From: Variovorax sp. PAMC 28711
GTDB lineage: Bacteria > Pseudomonadota > Gammaproteobacteria > Burkholderiales > Burkholderiaceae_C
NCBI RefSeq assembly: GCF_001577265.1
Contig: NZ_CP014517.1
Span: 358,501 to 422,500 of the forward strand
DNA length: 64,000 nt
Direction of reading: 5' to 3'
Each line of letters begins with the position of its first letter. The first letter of the stretch is position 1. Below, one piece after another: positions 5,670-63,805 of the stretch. The notes below the pieces were generated by a model. The model made no database searches. It was given only the letters and a program-made list of their open reading frames with translations, and was not told the origin of the DNA. The translations under genes and the position numbers were made by a program.

Positions 5670-6614
5670 TCAGGCCGGTATGACGGCCTGCTCGGCGAGA
5701 TGCCGGTAGTAGTTTGCCTCAGCCTCGGCGGGCGGGATGTAGCCAATGGGCTCCAGCAGTCGATGGTGATTGAACCAAGACACCCATTCGAGCGTCGCGA
5801 GTTCCAAGGACTCCTTCGTCTTCCAAGGCGCCCGGCGATGGATCAATTCGGCCTTGTAGAGACCGTTGACCGTCTCGGCCAGAGCGTTGTCGTAGCTGTC
5901 GCCTTTGCTGCCAACCGACGGCTCCACGCCGGCCTCTGCTAACCGCTCGCTGTAGCGGACAGAGACGTATTGCGAGCCCCTGTCGGAGTGCGCCACAAGG
6001 CTTCGATCGCGTTCCGGCTGCCTTGCGTACAGTGCCTGCTCCAGGGCATCAAGGACGAAGTCTGTCGTCATCGAACTGCTGACTCGCCAGCCTACGATGC
6101 GTCTGGCGTAGACGTCGATGACGAAGGCCACGTATTGCCAGCCTTGCCAGGTAGAGACGTACGTGAAGTCCGAGACCCAAAGCTGATTCGGCCTGTCGGC
6201 CTTGAACTGCCTGTTGACTTTGTCCAGCGGGCACGGCGCCCTGCGGTCGCTGATCGTCGTTCGTACGACTTTGCCCCGCATGACGCCGCGAAGTCCGAGG
6301 CGTTTCATCAGCCGTTCAACCGTGCATCGGGCCGCCGCTGTGCCTTCGCGAGCCAACTGCCGCCAGACCTTCTCGGCGCCGTAGACCTGCATGTTGGCTT
6401 GCCAGACGCGCTTGATCTCTGTTGCAAGAATGTCATCGCTCTGCGCTCGTGCGCAGCGCCGTTCCGGCTCGCGACGAAGCGCCGCATGCCGTCGATACCC
6501 GGACGGGGAGATCTGCAAAACCTTGCAGATCGGCTCGACCCCGAACGTATCGCGATGCTCGTCGATGAGCTCTCTCAGGACTTGAATCGGCGGTCGAGCT
6601 CCGCCTGGGCGAAA
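5670..6614 (-). CDS. IS3-family transposase OrfB (DDE integrase domain)
   Basis: OrfB supplies the catalytic DDE domain and is normally made as an OrfAB fusion by -1 ribosomal frameshifting. The frame contains an HTH_21-like region followed by the rve integrase core: first Asp in SDFTYV, second in HSDRGSQY, and Glu in [11 protein letters not shown], consistent with an intact D-D-E triad. The open frame extends further 5' (to 6812) but there only overlaps orfA out of frame. Where the two frames join, orfA reads GCG TTT TTC; a slip of one base on the five-T run (6612-6616) enters orfB. No inactivating lesion is visible, so the element may still be mobile. Confidence 0.9.
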
Positions 6615-6898
6615 AACGCACTCGCCACCTTCAGGATCTCGTTGGCCCGGCGCAATTCCTTGACCTCGCGTTCGAGCTCTTTGACGCGCTGCGCCTCCGA
6701 CGTCGTTACGCCATCGCGCGCGCCGGAATCTATCTCGTGACGCTTGACCCATGTCAGCAGCGTCTGCGGCACGCAGCCGATCTTCGGGGCAATCGATTCG
6801 ACCGCCAGCCACAGCGAGGGGTACTCCCCGCGGTGTTCCAACACCAGGCGCACCGCGCGCTCGCGGACCTCAGGTGAGAACTTGTTCGACTTGTTCAT
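6575..6898 (-). CDS. IS3-family transposase OrfA (helix-turn-helix)
   Basis: This 107-residue protein opens [19 protein letters not shown], typical of the HTH_Tnp_1/IS3 OrfA family. It has a DNA-binding helix-turn-helix in the first ~60 residues and a leucine-rich coiled coil after it ([18 protein letters not shown]). It ends with the [11 protein letters not shown] motif characteristic of OrfA C-termini at the programmed frameshift site. It binds the inverted repeats and, fused to OrfB, forms the transposase. It is complete, with its ATG 50 bp inside the right end of the IS. Confidence 0.9.
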
Positions 6899-6922
6899 GG
6901 CTCCATCTTCTCAAAGGGTGGA

Positions 6923-6948
6923 GCCTCCACAAATCCCGGTGCGGTTCA
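6923..6948. repeat. IS3 terminal inverted repeat, right
   Basis: Partner of the repeat at 5631-5656. It lies just upstream of orfA, as expected for the promoter-proximal end of an IS3 element. Confidence 0.85.
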
Positions 6949-7640
6949 CTTCCGGTTAGACGGCATCGACGCACTGCGCGTGCACCATCGACGGCATAGC
7001 CCACTGCGAACAAGCCGGCATTGCTGCCGAGCACGCGGTGGTGCGTGAATTCGGTCATCACCTGCGCAAGGCTATGCCCTTCATTGACCGTCGCCACGCC
7101 GGCGCCATTGAAGGTGTAGGTGGCCGCCACAGCACTTGGGTACAGCAGGTTGAAGGCCGTCGCGAGGTGCCCGCCCAAGCTGTAGCCGGTGACGGTCAGT
7201 TGGTCGGATGTCGTGATCTTGTCGCTCGCATACAGCGACGCCACCCACGCCTGCATGTCTGCGATCTGTCCGAAGGCCCAGCCCTCGGCCTTGATCTCCA
7301 TGACGTTGGTGGCCTGGTTGTCGCGTACTGCGTCGTCGGCAAATTCCGTACTTCGGAAGCTGATGACCACCTCGCCGGTCTGGCTGTTTCTGAACAGCGT
7401 GCCAGAGAACCCAGTGCTGGTGTTGCTCTTGTGCTCGACCACCGTCCAGCCTTCGTCAATGAAGGCCTGCGCCTGGGTCTCCGTGAAGCGGCTGGAGCGC
7501 TCGTTTCCGTTGGTGAGTACGTCAACTGTCAAGTCACGAGTCACCGTTTGACCCGGCGCTGAAGTCTTTGGCAAAAGAAAAGCTTCCGCTGCAATTTGCA
7601 GATTGGCGTACTTCAGATAGGTTGCGATTTCATTCGACAT
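6949..7640 (-). pseudogene. RTX lipase 5' fragment (second copy), truncated by the IS3 element
   Basis: This is the natural 5' end of an RTX lipase gene. It begins MSNEIATYLKYANLQIAAEA and contains the lipase nucleophile motif GYSLGGH. It continues to HRVLGSNAGLFAVGY, after which the frame runs into IS sequence and stops at 6870. The ATG is one base downstream of the stop of the preceding small gene, which indicates an operon with hlyD. About 230 residues of lipase domain remain and all RTX repeats are lost from this copy. Over 424 bp it is almost identical to the downstream fragment at 5207-5630, but its 3' part (6949-7106) is clearly a diverged paralogue. It could yield only a short, unsecretable protein. 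Confidence 0.85.
7107..7530. repeat. Direct repeat, copy B (424 bp of lipase coding sequence)
   Basis: Partner of 5207-5630, with one mismatch seen. Unlike copy A it is followed by native N-terminal lipase sequence, so the repeat boundary at 7530 corresponds to the point where the IS abuts copy A. Confidence 0.9.
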
Positions 7641-8003: not shown

Positions 8004-9442
8004 TCACCTTTCCCTGAGACTTTCCCCTGTCGCCCGTTGCACTGGACTCAACAGGAACTCAATAATCCGCCGCTGTCCAGTCTTGATCTCCGCAGTCACA
8101 TTCATCCCCGGACTCAACCGAATCTGCTTCCCATCCACATCGATGGTGGTTTTGTCCAGGCTCAGCGTCACAGGGAACATCGCTCCCCGCTTCTCGTCAT
8201 TGACCGCATCCGCCGTGACGGTCTTCACCTTTGCCTTCACCGTCCCGTAGCGCGTGAAGGTAAACGTCTCCAGCTTGATTTCCGCCTCCTGGCCCGGATT
8301 GACGAAGCCGATGTCTTTGTTCTCCAACGTGACCTCGGCCGTGACGCGTGCGTCGTCGGGGACGATGACCATGAGGGGTTGTGCTTCGGTCACCACGCCG
8401 CCTTCGGTATGGGCGGCCAGCTGCTGGACCGTGCCTTTGACGGGCGCCGTGAGCGTGGTGAGCTTGGCGCGCTGGTTGGCCTTGGCTTGTTCCTGCGTGC
8501 CTTGCGAGCGCTTGAGGTCGGCGGTGGCCTCGCGTTCGCGCAGGGCGTGCCGGGTCTCGGCCAGGTAGGCGGCTCGGGTGTTCTCGCTTTCTCGCAGGGC
8601 GGCATGGGCCTCGGCCAGCCGGGCGCGCTGGGTGGCTAGGTCGCGCTCGAGTTCGATGCGCTCGCGTGTCCTGTCCTGATTGGCATGGCTGGACATGAAA
8701 CCCTGGTCGGCCAGTTGTTTGAAGTCGGCTTCCCGCTGACGGGCGATGGGCACGGTGGTTTCCAGCTTGGCGACCATTTCGCGCACGGTGGCGATTTCGG
8801 CTTGGCGGCGGGCCATCTCGGCGGAGAACTTGGCAAGCCTGGCCGTGATGTCGCTCCACTCGGCGGCTAACTGGGCCTTGGCGGCGCGGGCGTCTTCGGG
8901 GACCAGACGGCAGGAATCAGCTTGGCCGGGAGGTCGATACCTTGCGTAGGCGACGCTGCCAGCGCCTGCATCAACGTGCGCGTGCGCAGCACTTCGGACT
9001 GGGCGGACTTCAGCTGCTCGTCGACGCTGGTCTTGTCGGCGTTGGCACTGGTCGGGTCGAGTTCGACCAGCGCCTGGCCGGCCTCGACGCGATCACCGTC
9101 TTTCACCAGCACCCGCTGGACGACGCTGACCTGCAGCGGCTGGATGACCTTGGTGCGCTCGCTCACCACGATGCGCCCCGGGGCGACGGCGACGATGTCG
9201 ACGTGGCCGACGATGGACCACGTCAGCGCCATGAGGAAGAGCGCGATCAGTGCCAGGGCGAGCCGTCGCGGTGCGGGGTGAACGGGTGTTTCCTGCAGGC
9301 TCAGTGCGGCCGGCAGGAAGGCGGCTTCATCGGCCAGGCGGTCCGGGCCGCTCAGTTCGTGGCGGTGTTGCCAGGCGGCTTTGAAGATGGCGCGGTAGCG
9401 GGCCAGCAGTTCCCAGGCGGGATGGCGGACTGCGGCGCTCAC
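8004..9442 (-). CDS. hlyD: Type I secretion membrane fusion protein, HlyD family (frameshifted as sequenced)
   Basis: This is the periplasmic adaptor that would link the inner-membrane ABC exporter to a TolC-like channel. It has a cytoplasmic N-terminus, one membrane segment (ALALIALFLMALTWSIVGHV), a biotinyl-lipoyl-like half (GRIVVSERTKVIQPLQVSVV), a long coiled coil and a beta-barrel C-terminus ending near FLLSPVQRATGES. The N-terminal part (from 9442) and the main part (MARRQAEIATV...) are in different frames. One extra C in the run read as GGGG on the plus strand at 8898-8901 restores VWSPEDARAAKAQLAAEWS without loss, so the gene is probably intact. Its partner hlyB lies 763 bp upstream, an unusual gap filled by a toxin-antitoxin pair on the other strand. 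No outer-membrane component is in the window. Confidence 0.88.
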
Positions 9443-10205: not shown

Positions 10206-12446
10206 TCACGGCATCGCCTCCCCGCTTTGCTCCGTCCGTCCTCCGGCCTGCATGGCCCACAGATGCGCGTAGATGCCCTTGGGCTTCTGCAGCAGGCTGT
10301 CGTGCGTGCCGCCTTCGACGATGCGGCCCTTGTCCATCACGATGATGCGGTTTGCATTCCTCACGGCCGAGAGCCGGTGGGCGATGATGAAGACGGTGCG
10401 GCCCTTGCAGATGTGTTTCATGTTCTGCTGCACGATTGCTTCGGATTCGTAGTCGAGCGCACTGGTGGCCTCGTCGAAGATCAGGATGCGCGGCTGGGTG
10501 AACAGCGCCCGCGCGATGGCGACTCGCTGCCGCTGCCCGCCGGAGAGGCTGGCGCCCTGCTCGCCCACCATGGTGTCGTAGCCCTCGGGCAGCTCGCTGA
10601 TGAAGTCGTGGGCGCCGGCCATCTGGGCGGCGCGCATGACCGCCTCCAGGGGCGCGGCCGGGTCGACGATGGCGATGTTCTCGCGCACGCTGCGGTTGAA
10701 GAGCAGGTTCTCCTGCAGCACGACGCCGACCTGCCGCCGCAGCTGCGCCGCGTCGATCAGGCTGATGTCGATGCCGTCGACCAGCAGGCGGCCCTGCTCC
10801 GGGCTGTAGAGCCGCTGGATCAGCTTGGTGAGCGTGCTCTTGCCCGAGCCCGAGCGCCCGACGATGCCGATGACTTCGCCCGGCCGCACGTCCAGGCTCA
10901 CGCCGTGGAGCACCGGCGAGGCTTCGGGGCGATAGCGGAAGGTCAGGTTGTCCAGGGTCACGCGCCCCTTGAGGGCGGGCAGTTGGGCGGCTGTGCTGGG
11001 CGGAACCTCGGTGCGGGTGTTGAGGATGTCGCCCAGGCGCGCCATCGAGATACCGGTTTGCTGGAAGTCGGTCCACAGCTGCGCCATGCGCATGATGGGC
11101 TGGCTCACGCGCTGGGCAAACATGTTGAAGGCGACGAACTGGCCGACGGTCAGTTGGTTATCCATCACGAGGTGGGCGCCGTACCAGAGCGTGGCGGCGT
11201 TCACGAGCTTGCCGATGAGGTTGACGCCTTCGTGCGCCCAGCTTGCGAGGTTCTGGGTCTTGAAGCTGGCCGAGACATAGGCGGCCAGTTGGTTGTCCCA
11301 GCGACGGGCAAAGGCGGGTTCCAGCGCCGTGGCCTTGACGGTCTGGATGCCGGTGACGGCTTCGACCAGCATGGCCTGGTTCTCCGCGCCGCGGGCGAAC
11401 TTCACGTCCAGGCGCTGGCGCAGGAGAGGCACGATGGCCAAGCTCAAGCCGAAGTACAGCGGCAGGCTGATCATCACGATCAGCGTGAGCGGCACGCTGT
11501 AGAACAGCATGACGGCGATGAAGACGATGGAGAAGACCACGTCGAGCAGCACGGTCAAAGCGTTGCCGGTGAGGAAGCTGCGGATGTTCTCGAGTTCGCG
11601 CACGCGAGCCACAGAGTCGCCGACGCGCCGGGCCTGGAAGTAGGCCAAGGGCAGCTGGACCAGGTGGCGGAACAGGCGCGCACCGAGTTCGACGTCAATG
11701 CGGCTGGTGGTGTGGCTGAAGACATAACTGCGCAGGCCGTTGAGCACGCTCTCAAAGACGACCACCACGACCAGACCGATGACCAGCACGTCGAGCGTGG
11801 TGACGCCGCGGTGCACGAGCACTTTGTCCATGACGACCTGGAAGAACAGCGGGCTGACCAGCGCGAAGAGCTGGAGCATGAAGCTGATGGCGAGCACTTC
11901 GCCTAGCAAGCGGCGGTATTTGATGAGGCTGGGGATGAACCAGCTGAAGTCGAATTTGGCGAGGTCGCCGGCCAGGCTGGCCCGGCTGGCGATCAGGATG
12001 AGGTCGCCGGTCCAGTGGGACGCGAAGACGTCCAGGGGTTCGATGACGGGCCGGCCGATGCCATCTGACGGGTCTTGCAGCAGAACGCGTTGTGCGTCGC
12101 ACTGGGCCAATACGACAAAGTGTTCGCCACCGTCTTCGGCACGGAGGACTGCCAAGGCCGGCAGCGGCGCCAGTGCGAGACGCTTCAGGTCGGTGGAACT
12201 GCGCTTGGCATTCAGGCCGAGCTGCTTGGCTGCGCGCAGCAGCGTGGGGGTGTCGATGGGGTCGCTGGGCACGAGGCCCAACTGATGCGCCAGCGTCGCC
12301 GGGTCGGCCGCAATCTGATGGAAGCGGGCGATTGTGCAAAGGGCTGCCAACGGCGCCGCCGCCGAGACCTGCTGAGCAATACCTGACTTCTCATTGACGC
12401 CCGGTGACACAACGGTCACTGGCGTGTCAGCGACCACGCTTGTCAT
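10206..12446 (-). CDS. hlyB: Type I secretion ABC exporter (HlyB family permease/ATPase)
   Basis: This 746-residue exporter is full length for the family. It has three parts. The N-terminal C39-like domain (about residues 20-150) lacks the ECG-type catalytic cysteine motif, as in HlyB-type exporters that do not cleave a leader. A six-helix ABC transmembrane domain follows (about 170-450). The C-terminal nucleotide-binding domain has Walker [10 protein letters not shown], signature LSGGQRQR and Walker [13 protein letters not shown]. It would energise export of RTX proteins carrying an uncleaved C-terminal signal, most plausibly the adjacent lipase. The start has a GGGAGAGG ribosome binding site just upstream. 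The adaptor gene hlyD follows after an inserted toxin-antitoxin module. Confidence 0.93.
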
Positions 12447-12618: not shown

Positions 12619-13575
12619 TCAGTGCGCGGGCACCAGAAAGTCCTGGCTGATGCGCGCACCGATCTCGTTCACCCGGTCAAGGAATTGCGTCAAGTACGCG
12701 TGCAGCCCGGTCGCCAGGATTTCGTCGACGCGCGCGTACTGCAGGTCGGCCAGCAGCTTGCCGGCGCGGCGCTGCGTTTCGGCGCTCTGGTCGTTTTGCA
12801 CCTTCGCGAGGTTGGCCACCACCTCGGCCAGGCTGGCGTGCAGCGAACGCGGCATGTCAGCGCGCAGGATGAGCAACTCGGCCACGCGCTCGGGCTTGAT
12901 CACGTCGCGGTACACCTTGCGGTAGACCTCGAAGGCGGAGACGCTGCGCAGGATCGCGCTCCAGTGATAGAAATCGTATTCCTGATCTTCCTCGGTCGCG
13001 GTGCCGAAGAATTCGCTGTTGAGCGCATGGAACTTGACGTCGACCAGCCGGGCCGTGTTGTCCGCGCGTTCGAGGAACGTACCGAGCCGCGCGAAATAGA
13101 AGGCCTCGTCCTGCAGCATGGTGCCGAGCGTCACACCACGCGACAGGTGCGAGCGGAACTTGACCCATTCGAAAAATTGCGCCGGATCGCGCTCGAATGC
13201 CCCGGCGCGCAGCATGCGGTTCACCTCGAGCCAGGTCGTGTTCTGCGTTTCCCAGGCTTCGGTGGTGAGCGCGCCGCGCACGGCACGCGCGTTTTCGCGC
13301 GCGCCCTTCAGGCACGACAGGATCGACGACGGGTTGTCCTCGTCCTTGACCATGAACTCCATGACTTCCTGCGGAACGATCTGGTCGTGCTTCTTGTTGT
13401 ACGACGGCAGCAGTTCGCTGATCGACAGCAATCCTTGCCAGCCGTACTTCGCGACTTCGGCGGACTGCGGCAGCAGCGACGTCTGGTAGTTGACGTCGAG
13501 CATGCGGGCGGTGTTCTCGGCGCGCTCGGTGTAGCGCGACATCCAGTAGAGGTGGTCGGCAGTGCGTGACAGCAT
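12619..13575 (-). CDS. Alpha-E domain protein (DUF403)
   Basis: This 318-residue, all-helical, Glu-rich protein begins MLSRTADHLYWMSRYTERAEN, the hallmark of the alpha-E family. It has AGGAGAAA upstream of its ATG and follows the circularly permuted ATP-grasp gene by 20 bp, so the two form an operon. Alpha-E proteins are consistently associated with circularly permuted ATP-grasp enzymes and transglutaminases. A role in forming or modifying peptide or amide bonds has been proposed from comparative genomics; no reaction is established. A second alpha-E domain is fused to an ATP-grasp at 21343-24056. Confidence 0.92.
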   Translation of the reverse strand: MLSRTADHLYWMSRYTERAENTARMLDVNYQTSLLPQSAEVAKYGWQGLLSISELLPSYNKKHDQIVPQEVMEFMVKDEDNPSSILSCLKGARENARAVRGALTTEAWETQNTTWLEVNRMLRAGAFERDPAQFFEWVKFRSHLSRGVTLGTMLQDEAFYFARLGTFLERADNTARLVDVKFHALNSEFFGTATEEDQEYDFYHWSAILRSVSAFEVYRKVYRDVIKPERVAELLILRADMPRSLHASLAEVVANLAKVQNDQSAETQRRAGKLLADLQYARVDEILATGLHAYLTQFLDRVNEIGARISQDFLVPAH

Positions 13576-13595
13576 GTGATGTTTCTCCTGCGTGC

Positions 13596-15095
13596 TCAGG
13601 CCGACTGGCTCTGCGATTGCGTCTGCGCAGGCTTGGGCCGCGGTGCGCGGTCGGCTTCGAGCACCCAGGTGTCCTTGGTGCCGCCGCCCTGCGACGAGTT
13701 GACGATGAGCGAGCCTTCCTTGAGCGCCACGCGCGTCAGGCCGCCCGGCACCATTTGCACTTCCTTGCCCGACAGCACGAAAGGCCGCAGGTCGATGTGG
13801 CGCGGTGCGATGCCCGATTCAACGAAGGTCGGCGAGCTCGACAGGCTCAGCGTGGGCTGGGCGATGTAACCATCGGGCTTGGCCAGCACGGCTTTCTTGA
13901 AGTCTTCGATCTCGGCCTGCGTCGACGCGGGGCCGATCAGCATGCCGTAGCCGCCAGCGCCGTGCACTTCCTTCACGACCAGGTCTTTCATGTTGGCGAT
14001 GACGTACTCGAGCTCGTCCTTGTTGCGGCACATGTAAGTCGGCACGTTCTTCAGGATCGGCTTTTCGTTCAGGTAGAACTCGATCATCTTGGGCACGTAC
14101 GGGTAGATCGACTTGTCGTCGGCCACACCGGTGCCCACGGCGTTGCTGATCGCGACATTGCCCGCACGGTAGGCGCGCATGAGGCCGGCGCAACCGAGCG
14201 TCGATGTCGGGCGGAACACCTCGGGGTCGAGGAAGTCGTCGTCGACGCGGCGGTAGATCACGTCGACGCGCTTCGGGCCGCGCGTGGTGCGCATGTAGAC
14301 GAAGTCGTCCTTGACGAAAAGGTCCTGCCCTTCGACCAGTTCCACGCCCATTTGCTGCGCGAGGAACGCGTGCTCGAAGTAGGCGCTGTTGTACATGCCG
14401 GGCGTGAGCACGACCACCGTGGGTTCGGCCGTGGCGGGTGGCGCGATGGCGCGCAGCGTTTCGAGCAGCAGATCGGGGTAATGGGCGACCGGCGCGACGC
14501 GGTTCTGGTTGAACAGGTCGGGGAACAGCCGCATCATCATCTTGCGGTTTTCGAGCATGTAGCTCACGCCGCTCGGCACGCGCAGGTTGTCTTCGAGCAC
14601 GTAGTACTCGCCGACGCCTTCGGTGTTCGGTGCGCGAATGATGTCGATGCCCGCGATGCTCGAATACACGTTGTTCGGCACGCTCACGCCGATCATCTCG
14701 GGGCGGAACTGGGCGTTGTTGTTGATCTGCTCGGCCGGCACGATGCCGGCCTTGACGATTTCCTGGTCGTGGTAGACGTCGTGGATGAAGCGGTTGAGTG
14801 CGTTCACGCGCTGGACCAGGCCTTTTTCCATCTCGGCCCATTCGTTCGCCGGGATGATGCGGGGCAACAGGTCGAAGGGAATCAGGCGCTCGGTGCCCGA
14901 GCCGTCTTCGTCTTTCGCGCCGTACACCGCGAAGGTGATGCCGACGCGGCGAAAGATCATTTCCGCTTCTTCGCGGCGCGCACGCATCACCTCACCGGGT
15001 TGCCTGGCGAGCCATTGGTCGTAGCGCTGGTAGTGGGCTCGAATCGCGGCGCCTGCGTAGGGCAGCTTTTCATACATCTCATCGAATTTATGCAT
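13596..15095 (-). CDS. Circularly permuted ATP-grasp protein (DUF404/DUF407)
   Basis: This ~499-residue protein starts at MHKFDEMYEKLPYAGAA (ATG 15095, with AGGAG upstream); an in-frame start at 15143 has no such site. Recognisable family blocks are EDNLRVPSGVSYMLENRKMM, then PGMYNSAYFEHAFLA, RVDDDFLDPE, LVVKEVHGAGGYGMLIGP and LRPFVLSGKEVQMVPGGLTR, with SSQGGGTKDTWVLE near the end. The family is predicted to activate a carboxylate with ATP and ligate it to an amine. The C-terminus is an unusual low-complexity tail ending AQTQSQSQSA. It is followed by the alpha-E gene; the substrate is unknown. Confidence 0.92.
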   Translation of the reverse strand: MHKFDEMYEKLPYAGAAIRAHYQRYDQWLARQPGEVMRARREEAEMIFRRVGITFAVYGAKDEDGSGTERLIPFDLLPRIIPANEWAEMEKGLVQRVNALNRFIHDVYHDQEIVKAGIVPAEQINNNAQFRPEMIGVSVPNNVYSSIAGIDIIRAPNTEGVGEYYVLEDNLRVPSGVSYMLENRKMMMRLFPDLFNQNRVAPVAHYPDLLLETLRAIAPPATAEPTVVVLTPGMYNSAYFEHAFLAQQMGVELVEGQDLFVKDDFVYMRTTRGPKRVDVIYRRVDDDFLDPEVFRPTSTLGCAGLMRAYRAGNVAISNAVGTGVADDKSIYPYVPKMIEFYLNEKPILKNVPTYMCRNKDELEYVIANMKDLVVKEVHGAGGYGMLIGPASTQAEIEDFKKAVLAKPDGYIAQPTLSLSSSPTFVESGIAPRHIDLRPFVLSGKEVQMVPGGLTRVALKEGSLIVNSSQGGGTKDTWVLEADRAPRPKPAQTQSQSQSA

Positions 15096-15177
15096 AAAAC
15101 GACCAATCTCCTGTGGCGGATAGCTTAGCAAGTTCGAGGCCAATCACCACGGAGGCAACCGCCGGCAGCGCCGACTT

Positions 15178-17658
15178 TCAGGGCACCGCGTGATGCCAGT
15201 ATCGCCGGCCCTCTTCCCGCTGGCAGATCACCTGTTCCGGCACTGCGCTGCTCCACCGAAAAGCGCCGCAATGTGGCGAATCAAAAACGCGTATGTCGCG
15301 CTCGCGATAGCGCTGCAACACCTCGTCCGCCGGATGGCCGAAACGATTGCGGTAGCCCACCTGCGCGATGGCGATGCGTGGCTTCACGGCGTTGAGGAAA
15401 GCGGCGCTCGACGACGTCTTGCTGCCGTGATGCGGTGCCAGCAGCACGTCGGCCTGCAACCCCGGGCCACGCGCCACCAGCGCGGCTTCCTGCTCACGCT
15501 CGATGTCGCCGACCAGCAGCGCCGTCGCCCGGCCGTTTGCGATGCGCAGAACGCACGACACCGCGTTCGGCTTCGTCGCGGTGGCGTAGTCGGCGGCAAG
15601 AGGATGCAGGATTTCGAAGTCGACGCCGTCCCAGTGCCAGTGCTGGCCGGCCTCGCAGCGCGTCGAGAGGTCGCCGGGCCGCAAAGCCTGCAAAGGATGC
15701 GTCGCCTCGATCGAACTGAGGAGCACCGCCTGCGGCTGCATCGTCAGCACGGTCTGCGCGCCGCCCGTGTGGTCGCTGTCGCGATGGCTCAGCACGACGG
15801 TGTCGAGCCGCTCGCCCATCGCGCGCAGCAACGGCCCGAGCACGCGATGGCCCGCATCGCTCTCCAGGTTGTAGCGCGGCCCGGTGTCGTAGAGCAGGCT
15901 GTGGCGGGCGGTTCGCACCAGCACCGCGTTGCCCTGTCCGATGTCGGCGGCGAGCAGTTCGAACTCGCCCACGGGCGGGCGCGGCGTTTGCCACAGCAGC
16001 ACCGGGAGCAACAGGGGGAGCCCGAGCGTGCGCAGCGACCCGGGCAGGCGCATCGCCAGCAACACGCCGCCCGCGACCCCGCAAACGGCCATCCACAACG
16101 GCGGCGCCGGCATGGACAGCGTGGCGAACGGCAGTCCGGCCAGCCATTGGAGACACAGCGCGAGGCCCTGAACGGCATAGGCGGCAAGTTGCCACAGCGC
16201 CGGAACGGCCACGCCGAGCATCGCCAGCGGCGTGACGACCAACGTCACCCATGGGATCGCCACTGCATTGGCCACCAGACCGACTGCCGAAACCTGCTGG
16301 AACAACAGCACGCCGAGCGGGGTGAGCGCCAGCGTGACCACCCATTGCTCCCTGAACATCTGCAGGAGCCGGGCAACGGCGCCTGTCCTGCCCGCCCGGG
16401 GCGCCCCGGAATCCGTCGCGAACAGCACGCCGACGGCGACAAAACTCAGCCAGAAGCCGGCCTGCATCAGCGCCCACGGGTCGATCATCACGACCATCGC
16501 GCACACGAGCAGCCAGACGTGCGGCCATGGCCAACGCCGCCCGCTCAGGCGCAGCAGCGCGACAACGGCCAGCATCCAGACGGTGCGCTGCGACGGCACG
16601 CCCCAGCCGCTGAACAGCGCATAGAGCGCCGCCAGCAGCACGCCCCCCGCCAGCGCCGCATGCGGCGCTGGCCAACGCAGCATGAGGCGCACGCTGCGCC
16701 GCCACAGCGTGCCGACAGCGAGCGCGGCGAGCCAGGCGAACATCGTGATGTGCAGGCCCGAGATGCTCATCAGGTGCGCGACGCCGGTCGCTCGGAAGAC
16801 ATCCCAGTCGGCCCGGTCGATCGCGTTCTGGTCGCCGGTGACCAGGGCTGCGATCACGCCCGCGAGCTTGCGATCGGCCACCCGCTCGAACACGGCGTCC
16901 CGCACCGACTCGCGCGCGCGTTCGACCGGATGCAGCCAGGTGTCGGCGACACGCTCCGGCGCGGCATCGCCGGCGCCGTTGCGAACATACCCGGTCGCCT
17001 GCACGCCCTGCTCCCAGGCCCACAGTTCGTAATCGTGGCCGTGCGGGTTCAGGTTGCCGTGCGGCGCCTTCAACCGCACTGTCATGCGCCAACGCTCGCC
17101 CGCGTGCAGCGGACCCGGCGCAGCGACCGGCTCGGCACGCCCGCTCTCGTCGGCGCTGCGTCCCCAAAGTCCCGTGTTGGCCGCGTACCAGCCGAGCGCG
17201 ATGCGCGGCGGCATCGCAGGCAGCGGCTCGGTGCTGCGATCGGCCCAGCGCGCCGAGGTCACGTCGAGTCGAAAGCGGGTGCCGCCCTCGCCGCGCTGCG
17301 GCATCTGGGCCACGACGCCGACGACCTGCACGTCGCGCCCTTCAAGCGCAGGCGTCAGCGTGTCTTGCGCATACACGGCAGCGCGCCATCCGGCGGAACC
17401 TGCGCCGATGCACAGACCCATGAACAAGACCGCGAGCCCGCGCAGGCGAGGCGCGCCGCCGTCGGCCCGCGCAACCGCAAACAACCCGGCAAAACCGACC
17501 GCCAGCAAGACTGCGTAGCCCGCCTCGTCCCAGAGTCGCGGCTGATGCAATTGCAACACCGCCCCGAGGACCGAGCCCGCGAGCGCAGCGAACGCATTTC
17601 GCCCACGCGCGGCGGTGCCCGGCTCCCCGCCCCCACTCACGCTGACACTCCCTTGCAC
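15178..17658 (-). CDS. comEC: ComEC/Rec2 family DNA uptake channel
   Basis: This 826-residue polytopic inner-membrane protein would carry transforming single-stranded DNA across the cytoplasmic membrane. It has an N-terminal membrane and OB-like region, then the competence domain (LMSISGLHITMFAWLAALA near residue 300 followed by many hydrophobic helices). The C-terminal metallo-beta-lactamase-like domain contains LAADIGQGNAVLV and SHRDSDHTGGAQ, then HHGSKTSSS. GTG 17658 is the likely start. Length and all domains agree with a complete ComEC. It sits between the two halves of the ATP-grasp/transglutaminase locus and diverges from the gene at 17796; no other competence gene is nearby. Confidence 0.92.
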   Translation of the reverse strand: MQGSVSVSGGGEPGTAARGRNAFAALAGSVLGAVLQLHQPRLWDEAGYAVLLAVGFAGLFAVARADGGAPRLRGLAVLFMGLCIGAGSAGWRAAVYAQDTLTPALEGRDVQVVGVVAQMPQRGEGGTRFRLDVTSARWADRSTEPLPAMPPRIALGWYAANTGLWGRSADESGRAEPVAAPGPLHAGERWRMTVRLKAPHGNLNPHGHDYELWAWEQGVQATGYVRNGAGDAAPERVADTWLHPVERARESVRDAVFERVADRKLAGVIAALVTGDQNAIDRADWDVFRATGVAHLMSISGLHITMFAWLAALAVGTLWRRSVRLMLRWPAPHAALAGGVLLAALYALFSGWGVPSQRTVWMLAVVALLRLSGRRWPWPHVWLLVCAMVVMIDPWALMQAGFWLSFVAVGVLFATDSGAPRAGRTGAVARLLQMFREQWVVTLALTPLGVLLFQQVSAVGLVANAVAIPWVTLVVTPLAMLGVAVPALWQLAAYAVQGLALCLQWLAGLPFATLSMPAPPLWMAVCGVAGGVLLAMRLPGSLRTLGLPLLLPVLLWQTPRPPVGEFELLAADIGQGNAVLVRTARHSLLYDTGPRYNLESDAGHRVLGPLLRAMGERLDTVVLSHRDSDHTGGAQTVLTMQPQAVLLSSIEATHPLQALRPGDLSTRCEAGQHWHWDGVDFEILHPLAADYATATKPNAVSCVLRIANGRATALLVGDIEREQEAALVARGPGLQADVLLAPHHGSKTSSSAAFLNAVKPRIAIAQVGYRNRFGHPADEVLQRYRERDIRVFDSPHCGAFRWSSAVPEQVICQREEGRRYWHHAVP

Positions 17659-17795
17659 ACGGCCACGAACCCTCCCGGATCGATCGATTGGACGCGCTCT
17701 TTGGCGCGTTAATTGCTTTGCAGTCGGCTAGTATGCGTCTCACACGAGGCCTGTCTTCCCGAACGCTTTTTCGACGCTCCTGGCCGCAAAAATAC

Positions 17796-20700
17796 ATGTC
17801 CATTCACGCCGCACTCCATCACGTCACGCACTACAAGTACGACCGCCCCGTGCAACTGGGCCCGCAGGTCGTCCGTCTCCGGCCGGCGCCGCATTGCCGC
17901 AGCAACGTGATTTCGTATTCGCTCCAGGTCGAGCCCGCAGAGCATTTCGTCAACTGGATGCAGGATCCGTTCGCCAACTACCAGGCGCGGCTGGTGTTCC
18001 CCGAGAAGACGACCGAGTTCAAGGTCACGGTCGATCTCGTGGTCGAGATGGCCGTCTACAACCCGTTCGATTTCTTCCTCGAGCCGCAGGCCGAAAACTT
18101 CCCCTTCAAGTACACCGAATCGCAAGCCGACGAACTCGCGCCCTATCTGGTGGCCGATCCGGTCACGCCGCTGGTGGCGGCGTATCTCGAAAAGGTCGAC
18201 CGCAAGGAACAGCGCACCATCGATTTTCTGGTCGGCATCAACCAGCAGGTGCAAAAAGACGTCAACTACCTGATCCGCATGGAGCCGGGGGTGCAGACGC
18301 CGGAAGAAACGCTGACCAGCGGCAGCGGCTCGTGCCGCGATTCGGGCTGGTTGCTGGTCCAGTTGCTGCGTCACATCGGCCTGGCCGCGCGCTTCGTGTC
18401 GGGCTACCTGATCCAGCTCACGCCCGACGTGAAAGCGCTCGACGGCCCGAGCGGCACGACCGTCGACTTCACCGACCTGCACGCCTGGTGCGAAGTGTTC
18501 CTGCCGGGGGCAGGATGGGTCGGCCTCGACGCCACCTCGGGCCTGCTGGCCGGCGAAGGCCACATTCCGCTCGCCTGCACGCCGACGCCATCGAGCGCTG
18601 CGCCGATCGAAGGCGTGGTCGACGATGCCGAGGTCGAGTTCGGCCACGAGATGGTCGTAACGCGCATCTACGAATCGCCGCGCGTCACCAAGCCCTACAC
18701 CGACGAGGAGTGGGCCGAGGTGCTCAAGCTCGGCGAAGCGGTCGACAAGCGGCTGATGGCCGGCGATGTGCGCCTCACGATGGGTGGCGAGCCGACCTAC
18801 GTCGCCACCAGCGACCGCGATGCCGCCGAATGGAACACCGACGCGCTCGGCCCGACGAAGCGCGGCTACGCGACCGAGCTCGTGCAGAAGTTGCGCGCCG
18901 AATACGGCAACGGCGGCTTTCTGCATTTCGGCCAGGGCAAGTGGTATCCGGGCGAACAGCTTCCGCGCTGGGCCCTCAACATCTTCTGGCGCGGCGACGG
19001 CCAGACGCTGTGGCACGACCCGGCGCTCTTCGCCGACGAACGTGTGCCCACGCACTACACCAGCGAAGATGCGCGCCGCTTCACCACCGTGCTGGCGCAC
19101 AAGCTCGGCCTGACCGAGCGCTACATGCAGGCGGGCTATGAAGACACCTTCTATTACCTCTGGCGCGAGCGCCGTCTGCCGGTCAACGTCGACCCGTTCG
19201 ATTCGAAGCTGGACGACGAACTCGAACGCGTGCGCCTGCGACGCGTGTTCACGCAGAAGCTCGATGCGGTCATCGGCTACATGCTGCCGATCGAACCGGC
19301 CAACGCCGACAAGGACGCGCCGCCGCTCGAAGGTCCCGGCTGGAAAACCGGCCCCTGGTTCCTGCGCGACGACCGGCTCTATCTCATCCCCGGCGATTCC
19401 CCGATGGGCTATCGCTTGCCGCTCGACTCGCAGCCGTGGGCCAGCAAGGGCGACTATCCCTACCTGATCGACCGCGATCCGACCGCGCCACGCGCCGCCC
19501 TGCCGTCGTCGGCCGACTACCGCGCTCGCTACACCGCAGCGACCACCGGCGCGCCCAAAGACGACCTGGGCGACGTGCCCTACACCTTCGGCGCCCCGCC
19601 AGCCACCACCGCGGCCTTGCGCATGCAGGGCCCGGGCAGCGCTTCCGTCGGCACCGTTGCAGCAGGCACCGGCAGCGACGGCGCGGACACCAGCGCCACG
19701 CGCCAGCCGCGTCGCGGCGAATCGGCCCATTGGGTCACGCGCACCGCGCTCTGCGTCGAAGTGCGCGACCCACGCCGCGCCAATGGCCCGGCAGCTGAAA
19801 AGGTCGGCGTCGCGTCCGGCGTGATCTACATCTTCATGCCACCGCTCGCGCGCCTCGAGGACTACCTCGACCTGGTCGCCGCGATCGAAGCCACGGCAAC
19901 GCAACTCGGCGTGCAGATCGTGATGGAGGGCTACCCGCCACCGCGCGACCCGCGCCTGAAGATGCTGGCCGTCACGCCCGACCCGGGCGTGATCGAAGTC
20001 AACATCCATCCGGCCGCCAACTGGAAGGAACTGGTCGAACACACCGAGTTTCTCTACAACGCCGCGTTCGAAACCCGCCTGTCGGCCGAGAAGTTCATGA
20101 CCGACGGTCGCCACACCGGCACCGGCGGCGGCAACCACTTCGTGATGGGCGGCGCCACGCCGGCCGACAGTCCGTTCCTGCGCCGGCCCGAGCTGCTGGC
20201 CAGCCTGCTCCTCTACTGGCACAACCATCCGTCGCTGAGCTACCTGTTCTCGGGCATGTTCATCGGCCCGACGAGCCAGGCCCCGCGCGTGGACGAGGCG
20301 CGCAACGACCAGGTCTACGAACTCGAGATCGCGCTGAAGGAAATCGCCCGCAATCGCGAGGTCTACGGCGAGAACATGCCGGCCTGGCTGGTCGACCGCA
20401 CGCTGCGCAACATCCTGATCGACGTGTCGGGCAACACGCACCGCAGCGAGTTCTGCATCGACAAGCTCTACTCGCCCGACTCCAGCACCGGCCGCCTCGG
20501 CCTGCTGGAATTGCGCGCTTTCGAAATGCCGCCCCATGCGCGCATGAGCATCGCCCAGCAACTGCTGATCCGTGCGCTGGTGGCCCGCTTCTGGGATGAG
20601 CCGTACAAGGCGCCGGTCACCCGCTGGGGCACCGAACTGCACGACCGCTTCCTGTTGCCGACCTTCGTCAAGATGGACTTTGACGACGTCATCTCCGAGA

Positions 20701-21308
20701 TGCGGCAAGCCGGCTTCCCGTTCGATCCGAACTGGTTTGCACCTCACCTCGAGTTCCGCTTCCCGCTGGTGGGCCAGGTGCAGGCGATGGGCGTCGAGCT
20801 CTCGCTGCGCAATGCGCTCGAACCCTGGCATGTGATGGGCGAAGAAGGATCGTCCGGCGGCACGGTGCGCTATGTCGACTCGTCTCTCGAACGCATCGAA
20901 GTGCGCGTGACGGGCCTCAACGAGAGCCGCCACGTCATCACGGTCAACGGCAAGGTCCTGCCGCTGCAACCGACCGGCACCACAGGCGAATTCGTGGCGG
21001 GCGTTCGCTACAAGGCCTGGAATCCGCCTTCGGCGCTGCACCCGAGCATCGACGCGCATGCGCCGCTCACGTTCGACATCGTCGACACCTGGATGAAGCG
21101 CTCGCTCGGCGGTTGCCAGTATTTCGTGGCGCACCCGGGCGGTCGCAACTACGAGACCTTCCCGGTCAATGCCTACGAGGCCGAGAGCCGTCGCATGTCG
21201 CGCTTCACCCGCATGGGCCACACGCCCGGTGTTCTCAAGACGCCGCCCGCGACCATTGAGCTGGCCGGCAGCCGCGAGTTTCCGTTCACGCTGGACCTGC
21301 GTCGTTGA
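17796..21308 (+). CDS. Transglutaminase-like / DUF2126 two-domain protein
   Basis: This ~1170-residue protein starts MSIHAALHHVTHYKYDRPVQ. Residues 1-90 match the bacterial transglutaminase N-terminal region. Residues ~150-260 are a transglutaminase core with a complete catalytic set: Cys180 (GSGSCRDSGW), His229 (DLHAWCEVF) and Asp245 (GLDATSG). From about residue 310 the large DUF2126 domain follows (MGGEPTYVATSDRDAAEWN ... PHARMSIAQQLLIRALVARFW). An upstream in-frame start (17688) would overlap comEC's promoter region and lacks family sequence. The protein pairs with the ATP-grasp/alpha-E fusion immediately downstream. The bond made or cleaved and the substrate are unknown. Confidence 0.92.
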   Translation: MSIHAALHHVTHYKYDRPVQLGPQVVRLRPAPHCRSNVISYSLQVEPAEHFVNWMQDPFANYQARLVFPEKTTEFKVTVDLVVEMAVYNPFDFFLEPQAENFPFKYTESQADELAPYLVADPVTPLVAAYLEKVDRKEQRTIDFLVGINQQVQKDVNYLIRMEPGVQTPEETLTSGSGSCRDSGWLLVQLLRHIGLAARFVSGYLIQLTPDVKALDGPSGTTVDFTDLHAWCEVFLPGAGWVGLDATSGLLAGEGHIPLACTPTPSSAAPIEGVVDDAEVEFGHEMVVTRIYESPRVTKPYTDEEWAEVLKLGEAVDKRLMAGDVRLTMGGEPTYVATSDRDAAEWNTDALGPTKRGYATELVQKLRAEYGNGGFLHFGQGKWYPGEQLPRWALNIFWRGDGQTLWHDPALFADERVPTHYTSEDARRFTTVLAHKLGLTERYMQAGYEDTFYYLWRERRLPVNVDPFDSKLDDELERVRLRRVFTQKLDAVIGYMLPIEPANADKDAPPLEGPGWKTGPWFLRDDRLYLIPGDSPMGYRLPLDSQPWASKGDYPYLIDRDPTAPRAALPSSADYRARYTAATTGAPKDDLGDVPYTFGAPPATTAALRMQGPGSASVGTVAAGTGSDGADTSATRQPRRGESAHWVTRTALCVEVRDPRRANGPAAEKVGVASGVIYIFMPPLARLEDYLDLVAAIEATATQLGVQIVMEGYPPPRDPRLKMLAVTPDPGVIEVNIHPAANWKELVEHTEFLYNAAFETRLSAEKFMTDGRHTGTGGGNHFVMGGATPADSPFLRRPELLASLLLYWHNHPSLSYLFSGMFIGPTSQAPRVDEARNDQVYELEIALKEIARNREVYGENMPAWLVDRTLRNILIDVSGNTHRSEFCIDKLYSPDSSTGRLGLLELRAFEMPPHARMSIAQQLLIRALVARFWDEPYKAPVTRWGTELHDRFLLPTFVKMDFDDVISEMRQAGFPFDPNWFAPHLEFRFPLVGQVQAMGVELSLRNALEPWHVMGEEGSSGGTVRYVDSSLERIEVRVTGLNESRHVITVNGKVLPLQPTGTTGEFVAGVRYKAWNPPSALHPSIDAHAPLTFDIVDTWMKRSLGGCQYFVAHPGGRNYETFPVNAYEAESRRMSRFTRMGHTPGVLKTPPATIELAGSREFPFTLDLRR

Positions 21309-21342
21309 TGCGCCGTGACGGCAGCGTGACCTTGCGCGGGCT

Positions 21343-24056
21343 GTGAAATCCTTGAACGAATCCCTGTTCGACAACGCGTCGCACGAAGCCCCGGCGGCTT
21401 TGGCGTCGTCGCTCGCCCCGCCGGCCCAGCCGGGCCATTTCGACGAGCTGCGTGGCCAAGCGACCCGCCCGGCCCCGCAGCGCCCCGGCACCCAATTCCC
21501 CGCAGCGCCGAGCGGCCCGTTGCTGTACGACGCGGCCGGCGAGCCCCCATCGGCCGCCACGCCGGAGCCGCCCACCGAGGACGACGCCAAGGCGCCGCTC
21601 GCGCCGGCGTGGAATCACTTCTTCGAAGAACTCGGCTCCGGCGGGTTTAGCGACCTGCCGCGCCGTGCGGTCAGCCTGGAGCGCCAGATCCGCGACAACG
21701 GCGTCACCTACAACGTGTACGCCGATGCGAACGGGCCGCAGCGACCCTGGTCGCTCGACCTGTTTCCGCTGATCGTTTCGCCCGAAAGCTGGGCCCAGAT
21801 CGAGGCCGGCGTGCTGCAGCGCGTGCGCGTGCTCGACCGCGTGATGGCCGACGTCTACGGCCCGCAGCAGCTGCTGGCCGAAGGCTTGCTGCCAGCCGCG
21901 CTGGTACGCGGCCATCCGGGTTATTTGCGCCCGATGCACGGCGTGAAGCCGCCCGGCGACACCTGGTTGCACATCACCGCGTTCGACCTCGCGCGCGGCC
22001 CGGATGGCAACTGGTGGGTGGTGTCGCAGCGTACGCAGGCGCCTTCGGGCCTCGGCTATCTGCTCGAGAACCGGCTCGCGATTTCTCGGCAGTTTCCGCA
22101 GGCCTTCGAGGCGCTCGACGTGCAGCGGCTGGCCGCCACCTACGGCGCCATGATGGAAGGCCTGCAGGCCATGTGCCCGGCGGGCGTGCCGCCGCACATC
22201 GCACTGCTCACGTCCGGCCCGTACAACGAAACCTACTTCGAGCACGCCTACCTCGCGCGCTACCTCGGCATCACGCTCGTCGAAGGCAGCGACCTCACGG
22301 TGCGCGACCAGCGCCTGTACCTCAAGACGCTGCAGGGCCTGCGCCCGGTGCACGGCCTCATCAAGCGCCTGGACGACCAGTACCTCGACCCGCTCGAACT
22401 GCGGCCCGATTCGACGCTCGGCGTGCCCGGCCTGCTGCAGGCGATTCGCGCCGGCAACGTGCTGGTCGCGAACATGCCGGGATCGGCCTTTCTCGAATCG
22501 CCCGCGTTGCTCGGCTTTTTGCCCGCCCTCGCCCGTCGCCTGATCGGCGAGAAGCTGCAGCTTCCGGCGCTGCCGACCTGGTGGTGCGGCGAGCGCGCCG
22601 CCATGGAATCCGTGCTCCCGCAGCTCGGCGACTGCGCCATCAAGCCGACTTACCCGGGATCGGACGCGCACCACACCTTCGAAGCCGTGCTCGGCAGCCA
22701 ACTCGGTCGTCGCGAGCTCGACGAATGGGCCGGCCGCATCGTGCGCCAGGGCGAGGCTCACACGGTGCAGAGCTACCTGCCGCTTTCGCAGATGCCGACC
22801 TGGACGCAAGACCTCGGCCCCGGCCACATCGCACCACGCGCCGTGCTGCTGCGCGTTTTCGCCGTGAGCGATGGTGCGCAATCGTGGCGCGTGCTGCCGG
22901 GCGGCCTCGCGCGCCTGGCCGGCGCCGATGCACAGATCGCCTCGATGCAGCGCGGCGGCAGCAGTGCCGACGTCTGGGTGCAGACCGCGGGCGTCGTCGA
23001 CCGCACCACGCTGCTCCAACCGCACGCCACGCCGGCCTCGTTGGCGCGACACCGCGCCCCCGTCACCAGCCGCGCCGCCGAGAACATGTTCTGGCTCGGC
23101 CGCTACACCGAGCGCGCCGAGAACGCCGTGCGGCTCGCCCGCCTCACGATCGACCTGCTGAGCGGCGAAGACCAGTCGTCCCGCCCCCTGCTCGCCTGGC
23201 TGCACAAGCTGGCGCTGCGCAATGCGCTGGTTCCACGCGACGTGCCGGCTGCGCCGAAGTCGCGCCGGGTGTTCGAACGCGCGCTGATCGCCGAACTCGG
23301 CGATGTCGACAAGGGCGGCAGCGTCGGCTACAGCCTGCGCTGCGTGCGCGAAGCGGCGGCGGCCGTGCGCGAGCGGCTGTCGCAAGACCACTGGAACCAG
23401 ATCGTGCGCGCCGAGGCCGAATTCCTGCGCCGCACGGCCGAGCAATCGGGCGAAATCGGCGAAGGCAGCTACGCGACCGGCGCCGCGCTGCGGTCGCTCG
23501 AATCGGCGAGCGCCGCGCTCGCCGCCATGACCGGCGCACAGACCGACCGCATGACGCGCGACGACGCCTGGCGGCTGCTCTCGATCGGCCGCCATATCGA
23601 ACGCCTCGGCTTCCTGTCGAGCGCGCTGGCGGCCGGGTTCGAGAACGGCGCGGTGCACGAGATCGCCGGCTTCGAGGCGATGGTCGCGCTGTTCGACAGC
23701 ACCATCACCTTCCACGCCCGCTACCAGCAGCGCCGCGACGTCGCCACGCTGGTCGACCTGCTGGTGCTGGATGGCGACAACCCCGCTCGCTGGCCTGGGT
23801 CACGCAAACCCTGCGCGGCCGCATCGCACGGCTGGCCGGCAGCGCGCCGGGCAAGCTCACCGCCCTGTCGTACGAGTTGCCGGACCCGGCCACCTGGACG
23901 CTCGAACGGCTGTGCGAATCCGGCGCCGAAGCGCAGTATCCCGCCCTGGTCCAGCTGTTTGAGAGCCTCGAAACCGCGGCGTACCATGTGTCCGACGCCA
24001 TTGGCATCCGTTACTTCACCCTGACCTCAGAATCCCTTCGCTCCGTCGGCGTCTGA
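21343..24056 (+). CDS. Circularly permuted ATP-grasp fused to alpha-E (frameshifted as sequenced)
   Basis: This ~904-residue fusion begins at GTG 21343. After a ~95-residue Pro/Ala-rich lead comes a circularly permuted ATP-grasp domain (SGLGYLLENRLAISRQFPQA; TSGPYNETYFEHAYLARYLG; LRVFAVSDGAQSWRVLPGGLARL). An alpha-E domain follows from about residue 565 (ENMFWLGRYTERAENAVRLA). The frame breaks at the CCCC run 23781-23784. One extra C restores GDNPRSLAWVTQTLRGRIARL and reading continues to the true stop at 24056, so the gene is probably intact. It is the fused counterpart of the two separate genes at 12619-15095 and is operonic with the genes on either side. Confidence 0.88.
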
Positions 24057-24098
24057 TTGCGACACGCAGTGCGCGAAGACTGGGGGCGAGCCAAGTTC

Positions 24099-25040
24099 AT
24101 GCGCCTTCACGTCACCCACGAAACCCGCTACGACTACACGCCGCCCGTCGAGACGGCGCAGCACCTCGCGCACCTGAGGCCGCTGGTCACGCCGTCGCAA
24201 CGCCTGGTCAGCCACCGGTTGCGCATCACGCCCGAGCCGGCGCAGCGCAGCGAATCGCCCGATCTCTACGGCAACACCCGCGCCTTCTTCGCCCTCGAAT
24301 CGACGCACGACGAACTGGTCGTCACGGCCGAGAGCGTGGTCGAAACGTCGGTGCCGCGCCTCGCGCCATCGGTCGCACGCGAACTGCCCTGGGAAGCGGT
24401 GCGCGAGCGCTTTCGCTATCGCAAAGGGTTCAGTTTTGATGCGGCCTCGGACTTCGGCTTCCCCTCGCCCTACGTGCCGCTGCACGACAACTTCGCGGCC
24501 TACGCGCGGGCCAGTTTCGCGCCCGGCCGTCCCACGTTCGACGTCGCGATGGACCTGACGCTGCGGATGCACCGCGACTTTCTCTACGACGCCGAGAGCA
24601 CCGAGATCAACACGCCGGCGGTCGAGGCGCTCGCGCAGCGCAAGGGCGTGTGCCAGGATTTCGCGCACATCATGATCGCGTGCTTTCGCACGATGGGTTT
24701 GCCCGCGCGCTACGTGAGCGGCTACCTGCTGACCCAACCGCCGCTGGGCCAGCCGCGCCTCATCGGCGCCGATGCCTCGCATGCCTGGGTGCAGGTTTAC
24801 CTGCCCGGCGTGGTGGGTCCGGGCGATTGGGCCGACTTCGACCCGACGAACGGGCGCCAGCCCGGCGAAGACTACGTGACCCTGGCGCTCGGCCGCGACT
24901 ACTCCGACGTCTCGCCGATGCGCGGCGTGCTGCACGGCGGCGCGCGGCACACGCTGCATGTCGGCGTCACGGTACAGCCGGCGGAGGAACTGCTGACGGC
25001 GTCGTCGCAGTCGCAGTCGCAATCCCAATCTTCTTCCTGA
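24099..25040 (+). CDS. Transglutaminase-like cysteine peptidase family protein
   Basis: This ~313-residue protein starts MRLHVTHETRYDYTPPVETA (ATG 24099), the transglutaminase N-terminal region. The core has Cys185 (RKGVCQDFAHIMI), His228 (ASHAWVQVYLPG) and Asp248 (DFDPTNGRQPGEDY), a complete catalytic triad. It ends with TASSQSQSQSQSSS, a Ser-Gln tail resembling that of the ATP-grasp protein at 13596. It is the last gene of the DUF2126 / ATP-grasp-alpha-E / transglutaminase operon. Members may act as amide-cleaving or cross-linking enzymes; activity is not established. Confidence 0.92.
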   Translation: MRLHVTHETRYDYTPPVETAQHLAHLRPLVTPSQRLVSHRLRITPEPAQRSESPDLYGNTRAFFALESTHDELVVTAESVVETSVPRLAPSVARELPWEAVRERFRYRKGFSFDAASDFGFPSPYVPLHDNFAAYARASFAPGRPTFDVAMDLTLRMHRDFLYDAESTEINTPAVEALAQRKGVCQDFAHIMIACFRTMGLPARYVSGYLLTQPPLGQPRLIGADASHAWVQVYLPGVVGPGDWADFDPTNGRQPGEDYVTLALGRDYSDVSPMRGVLHGGARHTLHVGVTVQPAEELLTASSQSQSQSQSSS

Positions 25041-60672: not shown

Positions 60673-60788
60673 AGCCTGACGATGACCTACTTTCACACGG
60701 GAACCCGCACTATCATCGGCGCTGAGTCGTTTCACTGTCCTGTTCGGGATGGGAAGGAGTGGTACCAACTCGCTATGGTCATCAGGCA
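60673..60788 (-). rRNA. rrf: 5S ribosomal RNA
   Basis: On the minus strand it begins TGCCTGATGACCATAGCGAG and contains the conserved CCCATCCCGAACAGGACAGT and GATGATAGTGCGGG segments. Its ends pair (GCCTGA with TCAGGC). The length is about 116 nt. Confidence 0.95.
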
Positions 60789-60929
60789 TAAAGGGTTGTC
60801 GAGTTGATCGGCAGATCAACCCAACGAATTCATAGAGTTTGGAATCAGCACGCAATGCCTGCGCTGCTTAGAATATATTTTGAATGCGTCAACTTGGCAT
60901 AACACCTTGATCTGAACGATCAAAGTTAT
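60789..60929 (-). other. 23S-5S intergenic spacer
   Basis: This ~141-nt AT-rich spacer contains no tRNA gene. It includes one half of the 23S processing stem (60921-60938). Confidence 0.7.

Positions 60930-63798
<2,869 letters not shown>

Positions 63799-63805
<7 letters not shown>

Follow-up and report, generated by a model that had tools for sequence, protein, structure and literature searches.

In this work, a window of 64,000 nucleotides from Variovorax sp. PAMC 28711 (contig NZ_CP014517.1, positions 358,501 to 422,500), by which we mean the whole stretch of DNA analysed, was examined for a doubled locus of ATP-grasp, alpha-E and transglutaminase genes. The genome consists of a single contig of 4.3 Mb, and the locus lies within it. 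A first-pass annotation, made from the sequence alone, had placed separate circularly permuted (CP) ATP-grasp and alpha-E genes on one strand, and a transglutaminase-DUF2126 protein, an ATP-grasp/alpha-E fusion and a second transglutaminase on the other; the Pfam assignments agree with this layout. The genes of the locus are the following:

12619..13575, minus strand: split alpha-E protein, 318 amino acids, all-helical (Pfam PF04168, E 7.6e-100)
13596..15143, minus strand, likely ATG at 15095: split CP ATP-grasp, predicted active ligase (Pfam PF14403, CP_ATPgrasp_2, E 1.7e-166)
15178-17658, minus strand: comEC-like gene between the two operons (Pfam)
17688..21308, plus strand, likely ATG at 17796: transglutaminase-DUF2126 protein (Pfam Bact_transglu_N, Transglut_core and DUF2126, E 0)
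21343..24024, plus strand, last part out of frame: ATP-grasp/alpha-E fusion, predicted pseudo-ligase (CP_ATPgrasp_2, E 9.5e-140; Alpha-E, E 3.1e-48)
23772..24056, plus strand: C-terminal part of the alpha-E domain of the fusion, in another reading frame (identity to the intact Variovorax guangxiensis fusion)
24057..25040, plus strand, likely ATG at 24099: stand-alone transglutaminase-like protein (Pfam PF08379 and PF01841; 3isr, E 1.4e-12)

The split ATP-grasp adjoins the alpha-E gene (Pfam) and matches PDB 3n6x, from Methylobacillus flagellatus, nearly from end to end (E 1.1e-207). Its motif E184-D185-N186 is kept, and the gene is predicted to encode an active CP ATP-grasp ligase. The ATP-grasp of the fusion matches 3n6x at E 6.1e-78, with S-Q-R where the structure has E-D-N. 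For comparison with relatives, ATP-grasps were first grouped by the length of the open reading frame (ORF; 92 short and 92 long), and three rows were then moved by overall similarity. L155 and L171, both truncated where the retrieved sequence ends, went to the fused group (scores of 468 and 383 to the fusion vs 257 and 248 to the split one; the L171 piece does not directly follow the DUF2126 gene but lies about 7 kb downstream), and L101 3799-6267 went to the split group (1040 to the split gene vs 257 to the fusion). After regrouping, the E-D-N motif was present in 91/91 split and 0/93 fused ATP-grasps, the position of N186 being R in 92 of the latter and H in one. In 15 further genomes E-x-N was found in 15/15 split and 0/10 fused copies, one of the ten keeping E without N; over both sets the motif was absent from all 103 fused sequences examined. 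The fused family has also mostly lost D342-D343-K344 and the glycine loop (about positions 395-400), and in it E-S replaces D-D (86/92 rows), R188 becomes Q (85/92) and S-M-Q-R-G-G replaces N-S-S-Q-G-G in most rows.

The split alpha-E protein contains two ER motifs, E17-R18 and E169-R170, which suggest an internal repeat, so that alpha-E may have arisen by duplication of a helical half. The surroundings of the two motifs are alike (RYTERAENTAR at residues 14-24, FLERADNTAR at residues 167-176). Its AlphaFold2 model (predicted local distance difference test, pLDDT, 89.7) consists of helices only, and a Foldseek search with it gave no match at E <=0.001, the best being E 0.08. In the 54 of 91 fused alpha-E domains that were found by a pattern, compared with 86 of 94 split ones, the first motif is retained and the second is much reduced: D172 occurs in 7/54 fused vs 85/86 split domains, and R176 is varied in the fused (n=54) vs 86/86 in the split. 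In a tree of random 30 fused rows, random 30 split rows and 25 rows from L185-L209, one branch with support of 100 separates the two families, whose divergence is old. In trypanothione synthetase (TryS), Asp330, Glu344 and Asn346 are described as holding two Mg ions, and E-Y-N is present in 2/3 GspS-like loci. By correspondence with TryS and GspS, we infer that E-x-N is a Mg-ATP ligand motif, and the fused copy, in which it is missing, is predicted to be a pseudo-ligase. The loss of ATP-binding residues, named in the first-pass annotation as a finding that would refute its reading, was thus seen by motif comparison in the fused copy, while the split copy keeps E-D-N.

The distribution of these genes was followed in a sample of 120 genomes of the order, probably Burkholderiales, and in another of 249 genomes of the phylum. 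In the order sample, the split ATP-grasp and alpha-E pair was found in 65 genomes, DUF2126 in 41, the fusion in 22 and the proteasome-like protein Anbu in 61. The sets are nested, all genomes with the fusion lying inside those with DUF2126 and all of these inside those with the split pair. Anbu accompanied the split pair in 60/65 genomes and occurred in 1/55 genomes without it. In the phylum sample, alpha-E was found in 145/249 genomes and DUF2126 in 75/249, all 75 among the 145; when two or more alpha-E matches are taken as a fused copy, 80 genomes have one, 70 of them with DUF2126. Wherever the two could be distinguished, the fused copy was accompanied by a split copy (22/22 in the order sample, and 10/10 in phylum genomes without DUF2126, in which gene lengths were checked). 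The gene found most regularly beside the fusion is one for a transglutaminase (21/21 and 9/10 in two sets). The arrangement of the window (alpha-E, ATP-grasp, comEC, DUF2126 gene) recurs in 18 of the loci around the best 80 of at least 593 DUF2126 matches, in genera including Variovorax, Xenophilus, Pseudorhodoferax, Caenimonas, Polaromonas, Hydrogenophaga and Limnohabitans.

Among named relatives, the transglutaminase-DUF2126 protein is closest to Variovorax entries, with at most 93% identity. Numbered from the ATG starts given above, the catalytic triads claimed earlier are exact in both transglutaminases, C180/H229/D245 in the DUF2126 protein and C185/H228/D248 in the stand-alone protein; two further matches to the transglutaminase N-terminal domain occur elsewhere in the genome. 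DUF2126 itself is described in Pfam as a predicted amidoligase, its structure model matches the glutamine synthetase (GS)-like fold, and we predict from this model that it is a GS-fold amidoligase. E734, N736, H781, E905 and R907 are invariant in 36 sequences and, by analogy, might belong to a metal-ATP site. The Anbu gene of the genome was identified by sequence (5loy, E 1.2e-94; 5nyj, E 2.1e-76) and lies outside the window and in no operon with the ligases (G000:C1:510764-511588). In locus L009, an Anbu gene of 275 aa (1216-2043) stands away from the ligase operons, right after a MutS-like ORF.

Both operons are preceded by a sigma-54-like element, scored against the -24/-12 consensus:

15127..15142, minus strand: TGGCCTCGAACTTGCT, 47 bases before the start of the ATP-grasp gene (score 18.5, with 0.05 of shuffles as high)
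17702..17717, plus strand: TGGCGCGTTAATTGCT, 94 bases before the transglutaminase-DUF2126 start (score 20.5)

The second is the only match in the window with one mismatch to the consensus. The pattern alone is not significant in the window; the weight of these elements comes from relatives, as they recur in comamonads. In the Variovorax loci L103, L104 and L151, an element near-identical to the first stands at a distance of 45 bases upstream, and elements near-identical to the second occur in Variovorax and Xenophilus loci L100, L101, L103, L104 and L105. In two sets of relatives, with counts inflated by relatedness and scores that depend on guessed start codons, a score of at least 19 was reached in 6/19 and 37/67 cases before DUF2126 genes that come first in their operon, and in 0/16 and 0/10 before operon-internal ones (one of the 16, L077, being a transglutaminase-like piece of 305 aa). 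Before the ATP-grasp it was reached in 31/53 rows, two of them flagged as internal, and in 14/36 rows, which include L171.

The original accounts of an operon of ATP-grasp, alpha-E, transglutaminase and Anbu are reportedly those of Iyer et al. 2009 and Valas and Bourne 2008. For this operon, peptide synthesis or tagging has been proposed (PMC6376114, PMC5666114), and the ATP-grasp of the Yersinia bercovieri operon is reported to release phosphate from ATP. The present locus shares the ATP-grasp, alpha-E and transglutaminase families with it and has Anbu in the genome. It differs in that Anbu is encoded elsewhere (the same-operon form is predominant, not universal), in the extra DUF2126 fusion, in the extra ATP-grasp/alpha-E fusion without E-x-N, and in the two sigma-54-like operon starts. 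In Burkholderia cenocepacia H111, the NtrC- and sigma-54-dependent cluster I35_5080-5083 unites DUF404/407, DUF403, transglutaminase and large transglutaminase genes; the available sections mention no fusion protein (PMC5491218), and regulation in the present organism is deduced from sequence only. In Pseudomonas putida, PP_2685-2688 includes genes for a proteasome-like subunit, a transglutaminase and a CP ATP-grasp. PP_2685 and PP_2688 were up on nitrate vs ammonium, and nitrogen limitation raised PP_2686 to PP_2688 >10-fold, with hardly any rise of PP_2685 in that table's first column; this is a compact Anbu operon, and the available sections mention neither DUF2126 nor a fusion (PMC7801951, PMC8050072). 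The locus is thus probably induced by nitrogen shortage in a sigma-54-dependent manner, by analogy with these systems. The rlo operon of Pseudomonas aeruginosa also combines an ATP-grasp protein, a transglutaminase-like protein and a protease, but its RloB is an inactive membrane transglutaminase, its RloC has 24% identity with RimK, and neither alpha-E nor DUF2126 is named in the part of the paper at hand (PMC12239564).

We hypothesize, with a probability of about 50%, that the locus is an extended form of the ATP-grasp/alpha-E/transglutaminase/Anbu system, that is, an amide-forming pathway under nitrogen control in which two active ligases work with cutters of the cysteine type, Anbu as an accessory and a pseudo-ligase partner. 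At nitrogen shortage, both operons would be switched on by sigma-54, probably with NtrC. From ATP, the active CP ATP-grasp and its alpha-E partner would form an acyl phosphate, which would then be joined to an amine, and the GS-like DUF2126 ligase would add a second amide bond to that peptide-like product or protein tag. Cutting or transfer of these bonds may fall to the papain-like transglutaminase domains and to Anbu. The fused ATP-grasp/alpha-E could hold the substrate, provide a scaffold or act as a regulatory subunit, and its nearest partner would probably be the product of the transglutaminase gene that follows it. An amide- or peptide-forming system with trimming enzymes, as suggested in the first-pass annotation, is also the published reading and is still the best, being supported in part; as stated there too, no product is defined in the available parts of the literature on this gene set, which give no reaction beyond the release of phosphate from ATP noted above. 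The kind of system was already known; what is added here is the reading of the fused copy as a pseudo-ligase, together with the sigma-54-like elements. The first-pass annotation drew on neither the GS-like ligase in DUF2126 nor the frame change, the sigma-54-like elements or the connection with Anbu. A more specific form, which we consider quite unlikely, is nitrogen-starvation-induced peptide tagging, in which the ancient pseudo-ATP-grasp/alpha-E beside a transglutaminase-type cutter would sense or present the tag and control the two active ligases, with Anbu as the remover.

Several results weigh against the amide-forming pathway with a pseudo-ligase partner. The metal-ligand assignment rests on a short motif, and its correspondence to the TryS ligands is inference only, as a profile-profile alignment to GspS gave no significant match. 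The GS match derives from an AlphaFold2 model of low overall quality (pLDDT 66.3), for which Foldseek by itself returned nothing but transglutaminases at E <=0.001. Regarding control, the element before the ATP-grasp of the window is weak, the sigma-54 pattern is not enriched in the window (6 matches with <=2 mismatches vs 15 expected), roughly half of the relatives' first genes have no clear element before their starts, and no NtrC-type box with <=2 mismatches to the consensus was found near 15,100 or 17,700. The 10/249 phylum genomes with a fused copy and no DUF2126, each with one split-length and one fused-length frame, mean that the fusion is not tied to DUF2126. Evidence from Y. bercovieri argues against the proteins of the compact set forming a tight complex: according to the available text, Anbu there formed no specific or stable complex with the other products of its operon, and it cut no tested peptide. 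The related genes respond to nitrogen limitation, the locus carries sigma-54-like elements, and an association with urea-metabolism domains in marine metagenomes has been described; the set could then make and remake an amide-rich polymer or a small nitrogen-storing peptide instead of a protein tag. We find this doubtful, since induction by starvation fits breakdown equally with storage and, to our knowledge, no polymer is known from these genes.

The fused copy also keeps much of its pocket: R112, D167, R299, D301, R471 and D491 are conserved in 90 to 92 of 92 rows (R471 and D491 in 92/92 each), R453 in 91/92 and K391 in 73/92, so nucleotide binding or a different chemistry may persist. Together with the strong constraint on residues of the family's own (N to R in 92/93, R188 to Q), this could mean that two ligase sets run in parallel, each for its own substrate, with the fusion as an active ligase that uses metal or substrate in a changed way. 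We regard this as unlikely, because ordinary ATP-grasp chemistry is hard to reconcile with a protein that lacks the two inferred Mg ligands and the glycine loop, and the fused copy came with a split copy wherever this could be told. Between the two substrates and the heteromeric complex offered in the first-pass annotation, the evidence therefore favours a partner or complex. A further difficulty is that the fusion gene is frame-shifted in this genome: the domains claimed for it are present, but not in one intact frame, which changes near 23,785, the remainder of alpha-E running in another frame to 24056. Its Alpha-E match covers profile positions 2-218 of 294 only, vs an extension to 294 in the other 21 fused copies of the order sample, and the C-terminal piece alone has no Pfam match. 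The fusion might thus be a pseudogene, leaving only the split set functional, but this is very unlikely, as identity to Variovorax guangxiensis is similar before (686/814 residues, 84%) and after the change (77/91, 85%), which indicates that the gene has not decayed. Either a recent mutation or a sequencing error is possible; the nearby HlyD-like gene (8004-9442, minus strand) is also apparently split over two ORFs, a second apparent frame change in the region that fits sequencing error.

Outside the locus, an HlyB-like type I secretion gene (10206-12446) lies near an ORF (6870-7640, minus strand) that has no Pfam match and carries a lipase-like GYSLGG motif. Beside this ORF and close to the type I secretion genes is a transposase gene with rve and HTH_21 domains (5670-6812, minus strand) of IS3 type, with an ALIL pseudoknot in its region (Rfam RF01497, 6504-6620, minus strand). 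5S and 23S ribosomal RNA genes at 60674-63805 (minus strand) are in keeping with the low GC content of the final 4 kb of the window.

The gene set is widespread, more than half of the sampled phylum genomes having alpha-E, yet it is still unexplained. Sorting its proteins into an active ATP-grasp, a GS-like ligase and a pseudo-ligase, all of them predicted, indicates which should be assayed for the use of ATP vs its binding, and the sigma-54-like elements point to the condition under which to look. If a pseudo-ligase has truly been kept across the phylum, it would be a useful example of an enzyme that lost its activity and became a partner or regulator.

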